Source: Janibacter melonis (GTDB taxonomy: Bacteria; Actinomycetota; Actinomycetes; Actinomycetales; Dermatophilaceae). Taken from it: a stretch of 64,000 nucleotides of DNA. A program made the translations under genes and the position numbers. This document shows, piece after piece, positions 14,032 to 61,827 of the stretch. A model generated the notes under the pieces. It was not told the origin of the DNA. It saw only the letters and a program-made list of their open reading frames with translations, and did not search any database. Location of the stretch: the NCBI RefSeq assembly GCF_020567375.1, contig NZ_JAJBZM010000002.1, positions 588,779 through 652,778 on the forward strand. Reading direction: 5' to 3'. Position 1 is the stretch's first letter; the number at the start of each line of letters is the position of its first letter.

Positions 14032-14218
14032 ACCGCCGAGTCCTGCCCCCGTGCCGACGTCCGGTTCCACCACCGGGCAGGAGCGGGGGACCCACCATCG
14101 GGGCGAGCGTGCTCGCCCCTCGGGGTGAAGTCCTCCAGGTCGTCGCTCGCGCGGCGTCCTGCTGGGCCGGGTGTCCTCCACCCGAACCCGACAGCTCACC
14201 TCGTAGGCATCGAGAGGC
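14032..14218 (+). promoter_or_regulatory. Cyclic-di-AMP riboswitch (ydaO/yuaA leader)
   Basis: The leader carries the conserved blocks of the ydaO class in order: GGGGGACCCACCAT, GGGGTGAAGTCC, a GGGCCGGGTGTCC segment, and ACCCGACAGCTCACC followed by TCGTAGGCATCGAGAG just before the start codon. In actinobacteria this class normally sits in front of cell-wall hydrolase genes, exactly as here. Family knowledge says c-di-AMP binding turns expression off, tying wall hydrolysis to turgor and potassium state. Confidence 0.9.
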
Positions 14219-14224
14219 ACCACT

Positions 14225-15133
14225 GTGACCGAGCGCAGCCACGGGCGCCACCGCGCCGCCGGACGGTACAACCCCGTCACCGAGCTGACCACCATCGTCT
14301 CCGACGCGACGACCCCCCTCGTCAAGGGCGCGGCCGTCGTCGCCGCGTCCGGCGGGCTCATCGCCGCCGTCGCCGTCCCGGCCTCGGCCGCTGACGCCCC
14401 CGTCGACCAGGGTCGCCAGGAGGTCGCCGCCGCCGACGTCAGCACCGTCGCGGCCGTGCCCGCCGTCGCCGCCCCGCAGACCACGACCCCCAGCGCCGGT
14501 CAGCAGACCTTCGGCGCCCTGACGGTCGGCGCCGTCGAGAAGCCCCAGGGCCCGCCGCCGTGGATGGTCCGCCTCGTGCAGGAGCGTCGCGCCGAGATCG
14601 CCGCGGAGCAGCAGGCCGCCCGCGAGCAGGCCGAGCGCGAGCGCGAGCAGGCGGCTGCCGCCGCCGAGCAGGAGCGCCAGGAGGACGAGAGCGCCAGTCG
14701 CTCGCAGGAGCGCACGCCGGCTCCGACCCAGACCCCGACGCAGACCCCGACGGAGTCGGCGCCGACGCAGCAGACCGAGACCACGCAGGCCCCGGCCGCG
14801 TCGGGCGACGTCATCTCGATCGCGAAGCAGTACATCGGCGTCCCGTACGTCTACGGCGGCACCACCCCGTCCGGCTTCGACTGCTCGGGCTTCACCCAGT
14901 ACGTCTTCGCCAAGGCCGGCAAGTCGCTGCCGCGCACGACGACCGAGCAGCAGGCCGCCACCACCCCGGTGAGCAACCCGCAGCCCGGTGACCTCGTCTT
15001 CTTCGGCTCGCCTGCCTACCACGTGGGCATCTACGTCGGGAACGGCCAGATGATCGACGCCCCGCGTACCGGGTCCTCGGTCTCGGTCCGCCCGGTCTTC
15101 GACGGGGTCTCCGGCTACGGCCGGGTGAGCTGA
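14225..15133 (+). CDS. Secreted NlpC/P60 peptidoglycan hydrolase
   Basis: A 302-residue protein: N-terminal export segment ending near ASAADAPV (about residue 60), a Glu/Gln/Ala-rich helical region (about 120-160), a Thr/Pro linker, and a C-terminal NlpC/P60 domain (about 195-302). The catalytic cysteine is in GFDCSGFTQYVF and the histidine in HVGIYVGNG. These enzymes cut gamma-D-Glu-diaminopimelate bonds in stem peptides. GTG 14225 follows the riboswitch. The RIP-like helical region resembles factors that bind other hydrolases. Control by c-di-AMP is inferred from the leader. Confidence 0.9.
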   Translation: MTERSHGRHRAAGRYNPVTELTTIVSDATTPLVKGAAVVAASGGLIAAVAVPASAADAPVDQGRQEVAAADVSTVAAVPAVAAPQTTTPSAGQQTFGALTVGAVEKPQGPPPWMVRLVQERRAEIAAEQQAAREQAEREREQAAAAAEQERQEDESASRSQERTPAPTQTPTQTPTESAPTQQTETTQAPAASGDVISIAKQYIGVPYVYGGTTPSGFDCSGFTQYVFAKAGKSLPRTTTEQQAATTPVSNPQPGDLVFFGSPAYHVGIYVGNGQMIDAPRTGSSVSVRPVFDGVSGYGRVS

Positions 15134-20382: not shown

Positions 20383-20428
20383 GGTGCCCCCGGCAAGATT
20401 CGAACTTGCGACACCTTCTTTAGGAGAG
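20383..20428. repeat. attL: left 46-bp direct repeat
   Basis: Identical over 46 bases to the right repeat at 61754-61799. It corresponds to the 3' part of tRNA-Arg from the anticodon region to the discriminator; here the 5' half of the tRNA is missing, so this copy is not a functional gene. Confidence 0.93.
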
Positions 20429-24306: not shown

Positions 24307-26124
24307 TCACGACCCGATATCCAGTGTCGCGGCAAGCTCCGGGACTTCCTCGATCCCGTACAGGCCCCAGGGCTCTGGGGATATCTGCTGGTCGGGACCC
24401 ATTCGAGCGGGGAGGTAGATCCGAGGGCGCAGGTCGCTTCCTGAGCTCAGGCGGGCGGGGGCATCTTCACCTTGAGCAAGCTTCCCCTGCACCGTCACCG
24501 CGTCTTCCAGTGACATCTGCGGGAAGTACTGGCCCATCTGCTCATCGAGAACGAACTCGGCGACCGCACCCTGAGCCTTGAGCGCATCCAGGGTCCAGTA
24601 GGACGAACCGGGCTCAACGGTGCGGTCGTCGCGGGGGTCGTCCGCTGGGAAAAGCGCGACCACTGAGCGTTCCTCCCCCCATTGGTCGTCCTCAAGCGCA
24701 GCCGGGGTGAGGGTGACGTTGATAGTTGTTTCGAAGGGCAAGCAGACCACCCTGCCCTCGAGTATCCGGCGGAAGATGCGCGCGTCGATTCGATCTAGTT
24801 GCGATACAGCCTCCGGCACAACGAAGTCACGGTCGAACTCCCGCCCGATGAAGAGCAAGTCGTCTGTGAACTCGTTCAGAACGATCGCAGCGTCGAGCAG
24901 CTCAGGCTCCAGGGCGCCCTTCAGCTGCCCCAGGACGGCGAAGACCTTGCCGTTGAGGAGCATCCTCATCTGGTTGAAGCTGGACCATGATAGGAGCAGG
25001 CGGGTGACGCTCCACAGTTCGTACGCCGACCGGGCCTTCTTAAGGTTGACGGTCATGTCGACGAAGGCCGGACCAGGCTGCTCGTTGGGTAAGCGCCACG
25101 TGAGCACAACGGCTCCATTGGTGAAGGCTTGACGCATGGTTGCACCGGCTGATCCCTGGGCTGCACGAGTGATCAGTCCGTGATGGATAGTCGTCGACGT
25201 CTCATCGGTGTCGATCTCTAAAGTGAGTGGTCGCTCCTGGTCTTCGGGGAGATCGGGCACGAACCGCAGCTCGATGATCTCGCCAGGCAGTCCGCTCTTG
25301 ACGATGTCGGGACCGTCGATAACTACCTCGGAAAGGAGACGCGCAGGCAGACGGGCTGGCTCGAGCGGTCCGTACCGTATTGCGTCTGCGAAGTGTTTGA
25401 GGTCAGGGTCGTCAGGGGGGCCCTTAGTGTCAAAGTGGATCGAGAAGGGGCTGCGCTCAGCCGCGCGCGCATGACGGGGGTGCAGCTCCGCGACTTGGTG
25501 CGGTCCATCCGTACGGACCGTCCAGAACCAATCGGGATGGGCGTCCCGCGACACCTGGTCTAGGTCCTTGTGCCGCTTGAGCAAGTCCGGCAGGCCCCCA
25601 GCCAGTACCGACTTCTCCGTGTTGTAGATCGCGGCCTTTTCGAGAGTCTCGTCGCGGCTGATGATCGCCCTGACCACGTCGGGGTACGCCGCGACCCACT
25701 GTGAGTCGAGCCGAGATCGATCAACGAAGGTGATTGTGATCGCGGGATGCTGCGCCCTCAGCGCCTCGATGAAGGCCCACCCCGGCCTGGTTGCGGTGCA
25801 CGGCGCGACCAAGATCCACTCGTCCAACTCTGGACAGGTCTGCAGTGCGCGTTCAAGCGAGTCCGTGATCTGCCTTCGGCTGTCTCTATAGCGACCGTCG
25901 AACCCGTTCGGGAAGTACTTCAGTTGGTAGATCAGTTCCCGAGAGCCTGCTGTAACGACCCGAATGTCGAGGCCGCCGTCTCCGCCCCTGCCGTCGATGA
26001 CCTGCACGTCATCACCCGCATCGTCGTGTCGCCGATCCACGAGCGCGTTGATCAGGCGGTCGAACTTGGGCTGGCCCAGTCGATCCCAGTGCACCATCGG
26101 CTGTCCATCGTCGCTATACCCCAT
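24307..26124 (-). CDS. Large PD-(D/E)xK nuclease-like protein
   Basis: 605 residues. Residues 20-70 contain FDRLINALV, GRGGDGGLDIRV and IYQLKYF: a restriction-endonuclease (Mrr/NERD-like) core with D53 and Q67-x-K69. A second nuclease-core strand/helix with TATRPGW follows near 120. The remaining 450 residues are unrecognised, with alternating beta and helical segments, and may be a sensor or effector domain. The long upstream frame runs through the tRNA-like gene and is spurious; ATG 26124 follows an AAGGGG site. Likely a defence nuclease by architecture and location; no methylase is adjacent. Confidence 0.5.
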   Translation of the reverse strand: MGYSDDGQPMVHWDRLGQPKFDRLINALVDRRHDDAGDDVQVIDGRGGDGGLDIRVVTAGSRELIYQLKYFPNGFDGRYRDSRRQITDSLERALQTCPELDEWILVAPCTATRPGWAFIEALRAQHPAITITFVDRSRLDSQWVAAYPDVVRAIISRDETLEKAAIYNTEKSVLAGGLPDLLKRHKDLDQVSRDAHPDWFWTVRTDGPHQVAELHPRHARAAERSPFSIHFDTKGPPDDPDLKHFADAIRYGPLEPARLPARLLSEVVIDGPDIVKSGLPGEIIELRFVPDLPEDQERPLTLEIDTDETSTTIHHGLITRAAQGSAGATMRQAFTNGAVVLTWRLPNEQPGPAFVDMTVNLKKARSAYELWSVTRLLLSWSSFNQMRMLLNGKVFAVLGQLKGALEPELLDAAIVLNEFTDDLLFIGREFDRDFVVPEAVSQLDRIDARIFRRILEGRVVCLPFETTINVTLTPAALEDDQWGEERSVVALFPADDPRDDRTVEPGSSYWTLDALKAQGAVAEFVLDEQMGQYFPQMSLEDAVTVQGKLAQGEDAPARLSSGSDLRPRIYLPARMGPDQQISPEPWGLYGIEEVPELAATLDIGS

Positions 26125-26317: not shown

Positions 26318-26408
26318 GGAGGGTTGGCCGAGTCCGGTTGATGGCAGCGCACTGAAAATGCGTAGGCGAGGGAAAACCTTGTCCGAGGGTTCGAATCCCT
26401 CACCCTCG
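26318..26408 (+). tRNA. Class II (Ser-like) tRNA with GAA anticodon
   Basis: A complete cloverleaf can be drawn: acceptor GGAGGGT, D-arm GCC/GGC, anticodon stem GCGCA/TGCGT with loop CTGAAAA, a 21-base variable arm that pairs, T-arm GAGGG-TTCGAAT-CCCTC and 3' acceptor ACCCTC. The long variable arm says Ser, but the 7-base loop reads GAA (Phe). The acceptor is one base short or has a G-G mismatch at its end. It may be a decayed tRNA-Ser(TGA), or a non-canonical element-borne tRNA. Confidence 0.6.
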
Positions 26409-26415
26409 CCTCGAG

Positions 26416-26523: not shown

Positions 26524-27345
26524 TCAGCCTTGGCCCAGCTGATCGGCCTCGGAACTCGTCGAGTCGCCCTCGTCGGAACTCGTCGAGTCGCCCTCGTGGC
26601 GCTTCAGGTGGTCGTTGATGGCAAGGAAGATCATGCCCAGGACTGTGAGGTCTGCGTCCGGGATCACCTTCGCCAGGACCGGATGGCCCTCGTCGATGGC
26701 CGATAAGTCAATGCCGACCAGCACCGCGTAGACGTAGAGCGAAAGGACGAAAGCCAAAGCCCGACGATGCTTTCCGGCCGGTAGGACGTCTGATTCCGAC
26801 GCGTCGTCCAGGCCTTCTTCCTCGGGAAGGTCGAGATCCGCGAGCTGCTCATCGAATTGTTCGCTGAGTCTTGCGAGCTCGGGATTGTCGCGAATGATGG
26901 CTGTCATTCGCTCGGACAGGCTCGCCATCTCGGAGTTGCCGTATGCGACGGCCGTCATCCGCTTGGCCAGACTGCTCAGCTCGGAGCTCTCGCGCATGAT
27001 GGCCGCCATCCGCTGGGACGGGCTCGTCAGCTCGGAGTTCTCGCGCATGATGGCCGTCATCCGCTGGGACAGGCTCGTCAGCTCGGAGTTCTCGCGCATG
27101 ATGGCCGTCATCCGCTGGAACACGCTCGTCATCTCGGAGTTGCCGTATGCGACGGCTGTCATCCGCTTGGCCAGACTGCTCAGCCCGGAGCTCTCGCGCA
27201 TGATGGCCGCCACCCGCTGGGTCGGGCTGCTCAGCCCGGAGCTCTCGCGCATGATTGCCGCCACCCGCTGGGTCGGGCTGCTCAGCTCGGCTCGCGTCAG
27301 GGGGGTGTCGCGCGAGTCACGGGACTCATCTTGACTGTCGACCAT
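26524..27345 (-). CDS. Membrane protein with eight 17-residue repeats
   Basis: 273 residues. After a charged N-terminus come eight tandem 17-residue units of the type TSLSQRMTAIMRENSEL (about residues 20-155), an acidic stretch (EQLADLDLPEEEGLDDASESD), two hydrophobic segments (about 195-250) and a Ser/Asp/Glu tail. Hydrophobic positions in the repeats are evenly spaced, so they probably form a long amphipathic helical rod or solenoid. I do not recognise the family. ATG 27345 is preferred; an in-frame ATG lies at 27390. The gene sits alone between two copies of the dispersed element. Confidence 0.65.
   Translation of the reverse strand: MVDSQDESRDSRDTPLTRAELSSPTQRVAAIMRESSGLSSPTQRVAAIMRESSGLSSLAKRMTAVAYGNSEMTSVFQRMTAIMRENSELTSLSQRMTAIMRENSELTSPSQRMAAIMRESSELSSLAKRMTAVAYGNSEMASLSERMTAIIRDNPELARLSEQFDEQLADLDLPEEEGLDDASESDVLPAGKHRRALAFVLSLYVYAVLVGIDLSAIDEGHPVLAKVIPDADLTVLGMIFLAINDHLKRHEGDSTSSDEGDSTSSEADQLGQG
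26870..27290. repeat. 51-bp tandem repeat array (8 units)
   Basis: About eight 51-base units coding the 17-residue repeats. Adjacent units differ by a few bases, and two sub-types (one with GTATGCGACGG, one with TCGCGCATGATGG) recur in a higher-order order, indicating duplication of multi-unit blocks. Confidence 0.93.
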
Positions 27346-27391
27346 CTGAGGGTCCCTCACTCGTCGTGGACTAGAGGAGACCGATCCCACC

Positions 27392-43236: not shown

Positions 43237-43380
43237 ATGATTGACATGGAGACGGCAGCGGCCGTTGTTGACATCAGTGGGTACGTCACCGCCGCGGTGG
43301 TGGGTGCGGTTGCCGGCGGCGCTGTGCTGGTGGGCCGCGTGTTCGCCCGTCGCCGCGAGCAGGGTGACCGGCGGCCTTGA
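43237..43380 (+). CDS. 47-residue membrane peptide before the recombinase
   Basis: ATG 43237 with GAGGG upstream. The product is METAAAVVDISGYVTAAVVG-like: a short acidic N-terminus, one Ala/Val/Gly-rich helix and a strongly basic C-terminus (ARRREQGDRRP). This layout is that of a filamentous-phage pVIII-type coat protein or a small holin-like peptide. Its stop overlaps the TTG start of the recombinase. No other phage gene is present, so the resemblance may be only structural. Confidence 0.5.
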   Translation: MIDMETAAAVVDISGYVTAAVVGAVAGGAVLVGRVFARRREQGDRRP

Positions 43381-44030
43381 CCACCTGGGGATACGCGCGG
43401 GTCAGCACCCTCGATCAGGACACCGCGATGCAGTTCGATGCGTTGCGTCTGGCCGGCGTCGACGACGAGCACATCGTCACCGACCACGCGTCGGGCTCGC
43501 GCACGGACCGCCCGGGCCTGGCCCGGTTGCTCGAGCAGCTCGAACCGGGGGACGTGCTGACGGTGTGGAAGCTCGACCGGCTCGGCCGGTCGCTCAAACA
43601 CCTCATCTCCGTCGTCGACGAGCTCGGCACCCGCGGGGTGGAGTTCCGCTCCCTGACGGAGTCGCTGGACACCACCACACCGGGTGGGCGCCTGCTGTTC
43701 CACGTCATGGCGTCGGTGGCGCAGTTCGAGCGGGAGATGACCGCCGAGCGCACCCGCGCGGCGCTGGCTGCGGCCAGGGCGAAGGGGGGTCCGTTGGGCC
43801 GGCCCTCCCGTGTCACGGCTCATCAGTTCCGGCTCGTGCACGAGATGGCCGAGGCTGGCAAGACTCAGGGCGTGATCGCGTCGACGACAGGGCTGTCCCG
43901 GGCAGTCGTCGGGCGTGTGCTGCGAGGTGAGATCGCCTCGCTGGCGCGGTTCGACGCAGGGCCGGAGGAAGGCGCGTTGCCGCTGTACCGACGCGACGTG
44001 CAGAGAGCCGCGGAGCGGACAGGTCCGTGA
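43377..44030 (+). CDS. Small serine recombinase (resolvase/invertase family)
   Basis: 217 residues. The catalytic N-terminal domain has GYARVSTLDQD (catalytic S10), ASGSRTDRPGLARLL, TVWKLDRLGRSLKHL and FEREMTAERTRAALAAAR. A short C-terminal HTH reads MAEAGKTQGVIASTTGLSRA. This is the Tn3-resolvase/Hin size class. TTG 43377 overlaps the upstream peptide stop. The stop overlaps the start of the Imm8-type gene. A truncated second copy lies at 52064. It is the obvious candidate to act on the dispersed GACGATCGTC elements. Confidence 0.9.
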   Translation: MTTWGYARVSTLDQDTAMQFDALRLAGVDDEHIVTDHASGSRTDRPGLARLLEQLEPGDVLTVWKLDRLGRSLKHLISVVDELGTRGVEFRSLTESLDTTTPGGRLLFHVMASVAQFEREMTAERTRAALAAARAKGGPLGRPSRVTAHQFRLVHEMAEAGKTQGVIASTTGLSRAVVGRVLRGEIASLARFDAGPEEGALPLYRRDVQRAAERTGP

Positions 44031-60774: not shown

Positions 60775-61672
60775 AAACGTCTCCACGAGGTCTGGGAGCA
60801 GTACGACCGATCTGGCTCCAGTCACCTGCGCGCGACCACGCGGGCGAACTACCGACGAGGCTGGCAGCACGTCGCGCCCGCCTTTGGGTCCTGGCCAGTG
60901 GCCAGAATCGAGCACGCCGATGTCGCCGATTGGGTCGTCGACCTGAGCAAGACCAAGGGGCCCGAAACAGTCCGCCTCGCGCACCGAGTGCTCGTGCAGG
61001 TCCTCGACCACGCGATGCGCAACCGCCGAGTTCCCATCAATGTTGCCCGCGGCGTGCGGCTCCCCAGGCGCCCGCCTGCGCGAGCGGATCCTCACCGTGG
61101 ACGAGGTTCACGCGCTCGCGGAGAAGATGACGCGGGACGGTGACACCGTTCTCGCAATGGCATACCTCGGTCTTCGCTGGTCAGAGCTTGCCGGCCTAAA
61201 GGTCGCGGACGTTGACTTGGTTCGGCGGCGCATCCATGTAATCGAGAGGGCTACCGAGATCGACGGGCGGATCGACGTGAGCCAGCCCAAGAGCAAGGCC
61301 TCGATCCGGTATGTCGGCATCCCTCAGGCGGTTCTTCCTGCCTTCCAGGCTCGAGTCGTCAGCAAGGGGCCCTCGGAGCTGGTCTTTCCATCTCCGGAGA
61401 ACGGGTACCTCAGGAGCCGCAACTGGCGTCGTCGCTCGGGATTCGACCGGGCCCGCGAAGAGCTCGGTCTTGACATCACTCCTCACGACCTCCGTCGCAC
61501 GTTCGGGAGTCTGGCTCGGATGGCCGGCGCCGACCTTCGCTTCATCCAGAAGGCCATGGGACACGAGTCCATCACGACGACCGCGCGCATCTACGCGCAC
61601 CTGTACGACGACGAGCTCGATGCGATCGCTGCGGCCCTGGACGGTCTTCGAGAAGGTCGGGGTGGATCGTGA
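60775..61672 (+). pseudogene. Degenerate tyrosine-family integrase
   Basis: The frame from 60775, just after a stop codon, reads VWEQYDRSGSSHLRATTRAN, RIEHADVADWVVDL and RLAHRVLVQVLDHAMRNRR: the core-binding (SAM-like) domain. Near 61064-61085 the sense moves to another frame with ERILTVDEVHALAEKM, then MAYLGLRWSELAGL (catalytic Arg), HDLRRTFGSLA (His-x2-Arg) and GHESITTTARIYAH (Tyr nucleophile). About 60-100 N-terminal residues (arm-binding domain) are missing and one frameshift splits the rest. It lies 82 bases from attR, as island integrases do. Probably inactive. Confidence 0.85.
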
Positions 61673-61753: not shown

Positions 61754-61799
61754 GGTGCCCCCGGCAAGATTCGAACTTGCGACACCTTCTTTAGGAGAG
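61754..61799. repeat. attR: right 46-bp direct repeat
   Basis: Identical to 20383-20428. It forms the 3' half of the intact tRNA-Arg(CCT) from the anticodon loop to the discriminator, so integration restored the tRNA. Confidence 0.93.
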
Positions 61800-61827
61800 A
61801 AGTGCTCTTCCCCTGAGCTACGAGGGC
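61756..61827 (-). tRNA. tRNA-Arg(CCT)
   Basis: 72 bases: acceptor GCCCTCG with CGGGGGC (one T-G pair), D-arm GCTC/GAGC, anticodon stem CTTCT/AGAAG with loop CTCCTAA (anticodon CCT), T-arm GCAAG-TTCGAAT-CTTGC, discriminator A. CCA is not encoded. It is the integration target of the island. Confidence 0.95.

Follow-up and report, generated by a model that had tools for sequence, protein, structure and literature searches.

What a gene with the body of tRNA-Ser and the anticodon of tRNA-Phe contributes to its carrier is the question raised by one locus in Janibacter melonis, where such a gene lies within the window, the 64,000-nucleotide stretch of DNA analyzed here. The initial annotation had placed the gene in an island, and this is borne out by two perfect 46-bp repeats, one at 20383-20428 and the other at 61754-61799. 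They delimit a 41-kb island (20383-61799) integrated at tRNA-Arg(CCT), with GC content dropping from about 0.74 ahead of the island to 0.58-0.71 within it. The boundaries and main flanking features are as follows:

20383-20428, no strand: island boundary, a 46-bp perfect direct repeat of the 3′ end of tRNA-Arg(CCT)
24307-26124, minus strand: nearest upstream ORF, divergent from the tRNA, with an N-terminus resembling the Avs2 N-terminal domain (PADLOC, E 4.8e-9; start codon placed by eye)
61040-61672, plus strand: tyrosine integrase ORF adjoining tRNA-Arg, with the catalytic domain only (Pfam PF00589), apparently truncated
61754-61799, no strand: island boundary, the 46-bp repeat inside tRNA-Arg(CCT) (61754-61827, minus strand)

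The ORF at 24307-26124 (minus strand) has no Pfam match and is possibly a new defense gene of the island. On the other side of the tRNA, the product of the minus-strand ORF at 26524-27390 contains several short repeats that are nearly identical, such as LSSPTQRVAAIMRESSG, and only weak DUF6988 and PtuB-like matches were obtained for it. Further island cargo includes a heavy-metal P-type ATPase, a two-component system, and a serine resolvase (43377-44030). A c-di-AMP (ydaO/yuaA) riboswitch is also present in the window at 14051-14221 on the plus strand (41.9 bits), with an ORF starting just downstream at 14225.

The tRNA gene had been described from its letters as a Ser-type body with a long variable arm, a GAA anticodon, and an acceptor end irregular by one base, and all three traits were recovered. 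ARAGORN calls a tRNA with anticodon gaa at 26318-26410 on the plus strand, as tRNA-Phe, and the covariance search that the initial annotation proposed returns the Rfam tRNA model RF00005 at 26318-26409 with 46.6 bits (E 8.5e-7; gathering threshold 29), slightly below the 49-57 bits of the host genome's own class II tRNAs. The gene is built as follows:

26318-26409, plus strand: class II tRNA-Ser-like gene with GAA anticodon, positions 1-73 (ARAGORN; Rfam tRNA; cloverleaf MFE -38.2)
26318-26324, plus strand: acceptor 5′ strand GGAGGGT, with G1 unpaired opposite G72
26352-26358, plus strand: anticodon loop CTGAAAA, 7 nt, with GAA (positions 34-36) at 26354-26356
26364-26384, plus strand: variable region, 21 nt, a stem-loop of class II type
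26385-26401, plus strand: T arm GAGGG-TTCGAAT-CCCTC
26402-26409, plus strand: acceptor 3′ strand ACCCTCG and C73, giving the CCCTCGCCT end that is the same in an Arthrobacter plasmid relative

The D arm is of Ser type and the T arm is intact, while the acceptor stem forms six good pairs, leaving G1 opposite G72 and C at position 73. The same end can also be read as lacking one C, in which case a 6-bp acceptor stem is followed by G, C, and C. A functional tRNA-Ser carries NGA or GCT, not the GAA found here; a functional tRNA-Phe combines GAA with A73 and a class I body, whereas this gene has C73 and a class II body; and allo-tRNAs have an 8/4 or 9/3 acceptor/T-stem branch, whereas here the layout is 7/5 with an intact 5-bp T stem. 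Since the host genome also encodes tRNA-Phe(GAA) and tRNA-Ser with GCT, GGA, TGA, and CGA anticodons, the gene is not needed for decoding.

The relatives of the gene point to its origin. It had been suggested that it could be a decayed tRNA-Ser(TGA), but its anticodon arm is that of host Ser(GCT) (CGCACTG..AATGCG) and not of Ser(TGA), and its identity to Ser(TGA) is 65.6%, compared with 75-78% to mobile-element relatives. Its closest sequences are a member of an E. coli prophage (77.6%) and one of an Arthrobacter plasmid (75.3%), against 69.5% for host Ser(GCT). Descent from a host tRNA gene of the same genome was rejected, as identity is lower than to the mobile-element relatives. The ultimate ancestor is likely a bacterial tRNA-Ser, for which Ser(GCT) is the nearest host isoacceptor.

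Pattern scans of viral and genome contigs yielded 33 distinct class II Ser-like tRNAs with a GAT (Ile) or GAA (Phe) anticodon, mostly in prophages, plasmids, viral contigs, and diverse bacterial contigs, and GAT, not GAA, is the main anticodon. On a plasmid of Arthrobacter and another of Brachybacterium avium, a comparable class II gene with GAT precedes a recombinase gene by about 180 bp or less. The member in an E. coli lambdoid prophage occurs in 11 of 5426 genomes, where it lies antisense in the early operon and is annotated as tRNA-Ile. The window gene shares the Ser-like class II body, the GAT/GAA loop, the impaired outer acceptor pairs, and the mobile setting of this group; judged by sequence, it is part of a previously unremarked tRNA family on prophages, plasmids, and islands of unrelated bacteria. 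Literature searches returned no description of such a family. An open scan with only A35 fixed and positions 34 and 36 free again gave nearly all GAT or GAA, the exceptions being two TAG and one CAC; at those positions, then, the search itself did not create the anticodon preference. The regular expressions demand a Ser-like D arm and a standard T loop and miss members with other arms; a looser D-arm pattern gave mostly chance matches in coding DNA. Archaeal GAT matches, which look like intron-containing tRNAs, were left out, and matches in Acidovorax, Rhizobium, and Microvirga proved to be canonical tRNA-Ser genes. One TAG (Leu) gene, L345, has nearly the same body as L088, which carries GAT. 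A leader, CCCCTTGCTTGCAAGGTA, is conserved in L088, L155, L345, and L510, where it abuts the tRNA 5′ end and contains the palindrome CCTTGCTTGCAAGG. No relatives of the window gene were found in 187 other genomes of the same bacterial family or in 395 other genomes of the same phylum, and selection on the window copy is therefore unproven. No conserved partner gene was found across the loci, with phage terminase/HNH and recombinase genes recurring in a few loci only.

Comparison of the members with control tRNAs indicates that the acceptor irregularity of the window gene is a family trait. Both outer acceptor pairs (1:72 and 2:71) are standard in 3 of 28 member clusters versus 83 of 84 control clusters (Fisher p 1e-20, for clusters drawn at 85% identity that are not fully independent), the controls being Ser GCT, Tyr GTA, class II Asn GTT, and a few other Ser tRNAs, mostly from viral contigs. 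Pairing has been lost through either strand, with some members keeping the 5′ GG and changing the 3′ strand (..CCCTATT), and others keeping the 3′ ..CCGCCA and changing the 5′ strand. The rate of loss is close to that expected for unconstrained positions, so release from constraint and active breakage both fit. Since the Arthrobacter plasmid member has exactly the same CCCTCGCCT end, the irregularity in the window looks inherited rather than private. Acceptor pairs 4-7 are intact in all members, and the many compensatory changes in acceptor pairs 3-7 and in the anticodon and T stems (117 cells versus 37 shuffled) mean that selection acts on the structure of the RNA across the family.

The determinants of serine identity in bacteria comprise the long variable arm, C11-G24, R4-Y69, G2-C71, C72, and G73, the anticodon not being used (PMC9976931). 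Among the members, R4-Y69 is kept in 33/33, the C11-G24 column is invariant in all aligned sequences, and a long variable region (15-23 nt) is present throughout. At the acceptor end, G2-C71 is lost in 28/33, C72 in 22/33, and G73 in 21/33, with the discriminator varying among G, T, A, and C. All three acceptor determinants occur together in only 3/33; members L139 and L504 keep the full set, and most members are without two or three. The window copy retains G2-C71 and has G72 and C73 in place of C72 and G73. Because it lacks C72 and G73, and because the acceptor-end determinants are mostly lost across the family, the initial proposal that it would insert Ser at Phe codons if charged by SerRS is weakened, though possible.

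Members frequently occur as lone genes that lie antisense between genes of a phage, and a strong terminator-like hairpin, often then T-rich, starts within a few bases 3′ of most. The downstream hairpin scores differ from those of controls (p 3e-7; fold z about -3.5 for members versus -0.5), a contrast weaker than it looks since most controls come from tRNA clusters, where a gene does not require its own terminator. Near-consensus sigma-70 promoters were seen by eye upstream of L141 and L184.

We tentatively favor, at somewhat less than an even chance, the reading that the gene is a weakened, or "detoxified," non-cognate Ser tRNA. The family combines a tRNA-Ser-type class II body, a loop like that of tRNA-Ile (GAT) or tRNA-Phe (GAA), and outer acceptor pairs that are usually open. 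As SerRS ignores the anticodon and recognizes the long variable arm, an unimpaired Ser body equipped with one of these anticodons would direct serine to hydrophobic codons, with highly toxic effects. Both charging and delivery would be reduced by an open acceptor end that has lost C72, G2-C71, and G73, and the net product would be a putative low-level serine inserter at Ile or Phe codons. Yeast is killed by tRNA-Ser bearing a non-cognate anticodon unless the effect is dampened by second-site mutations, some of them in the acceptor stem or at the discriminator; of the codons tested, Phe codons were those at which Ser insertion reduced growth most strongly (PMC6827378). It is from the partly kept and partly lost Ser determinants, and from this damping in yeast, that the weakened inserter is preferred, with a non-charged decoy a close second. 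Residual serylation, low-level missense, and any benefit to the element are what we infer from these features; with most members lacking two or three acceptor-end determinants, charging may be nil.

Only somewhat less likely is an uncharged, non-translating tRNA mimic that helps the element because its Ile/Phe-type loop engages an enzyme, for instance a host anticodon nuclease, or else the A site of the ribosome. The loss of acceptor-end determinants for any synthetase, with a discriminator that may be any of the four bases, fits a decoy, as do anticodon loops identical to those of tRNA-Ile and tRNA-Phe and the frequent layout as single antisense genes followed by a terminator-like hairpin; phage tRNAs are also known to counter tRNA-cleaving defenses (PMC10264068, PMC11555353). 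A pure decoy, however, need not keep the variable arm, R4-Y69, and C11-G24 without exception, and no nuclease specific for the Ile/Phe-type loops of the family was identified. Either the weakened inserter or the decoy would account for the failure to maintain an intact acceptor end. Taken broadly, it is plausible, though less likely than not, that widespread mobile-element tRNAs with a Ser body, an Ile/Phe anticodon, and a disabled acceptor are regulators or counter-defense agents acting on translation or on tRNA-targeting enzymes, and not ordinary tRNAs.

For the window copy itself, decay from a tRNA-Ser or from a family member, with loss of the acceptor end and transcription signals, is improbable. 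The G1:G72 mismatch and the lack of an orthologue in the same family of genomes fit a relic, as does the outcome of simple scans, which found neither a terminator nor a consensus or sigma-70-like promoter and no hairpin directly 3′ of the gene such as most, though not all, members have; but these scans are weak in high-GC actinobacteria and catch their promoters and terminators poorly. All other stems are intact, and the CCCTCGCCT end recurs in the Arthrobacter relative with a different anticodon, as expected of a shared trait and not of a private lesion. That PheRS charges the gene through its GAA anticodon as a functional tRNA-Phe-like gene is very improbable: the canonical Phe loop with A37 is present, but in a class II body without A73 and with 55% identity to host tRNA-Phe, in a family whose main anticodon is GAT. 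Equally remote is the idea that the sequence serves a recombinase as an attachment site in the DNA and resembles a tRNA merely by descent, which the recombinase genes of the two plasmids and a resolvase near L152 would suit; compensatory changes at the RNA level, terminator-like hairpins, and a conserved anticodon loop speak against it, and a duplicated tRNA-like end was not found in the window.

The family resembles bacterial tRNA-Ser in its D arm, long variable arm, T arm, C11-G24, and R4-Y69, and departs from it in the GAA/GAT anticodon and in G1-C72, G2-C71, and G73, which are mostly lost. Allo-tRNAs and missense and nonsense suppressor tRNAs with 8/4 or 9/3 acceptor branches were reportedly described in bacteria and phages by Mukai et al. 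in 2017. These are likewise class II Ser-type tRNAs with non-Ser anticodons, but their acceptor stem is lengthened, whereas the family has a 7/5 branch with broken outer pairs. Viral contigs also hold class II tRNAs with GTT (Asn) or CTT/TTT (Lys) anticodons, which share Ser-like D and variable arms and a non-Ser anticodon; unlike in the family, their acceptor stems are fully paired (18/18 for GTT), which suggests a role in normal translation. The 18 distinct GTT genes (L232, L242, L296, L353, and others) are likely chimeric phage tRNA-Asn. The mistranslating tRNA-Ser engineered in yeast pairs a Ser body with foreign anticodons, including Phe GAA, and carries weakening changes, whereas the family is natural, bacterial, and borne by mobile elements (PMC6827378). 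The phage-carried tRNA genes that evade tRNA-targeting defenses apparently encode functional cognate tRNAs, in contrast to the mixed body and anticodon and impaired acceptor end of the family (PMC10264068, PMC11555353).

The current annotation of such genes as tRNA-Ile or tRNA-Phe is probably wrong, and the E. coli prophage member offers a tractable model. Naturally occurring tRNAs that combine the body for one amino acid with the anticodon for another would probe the extent to which bacteria and their mobile elements make use of mistranslation, or would reveal a new tRNA-decoy strategy.
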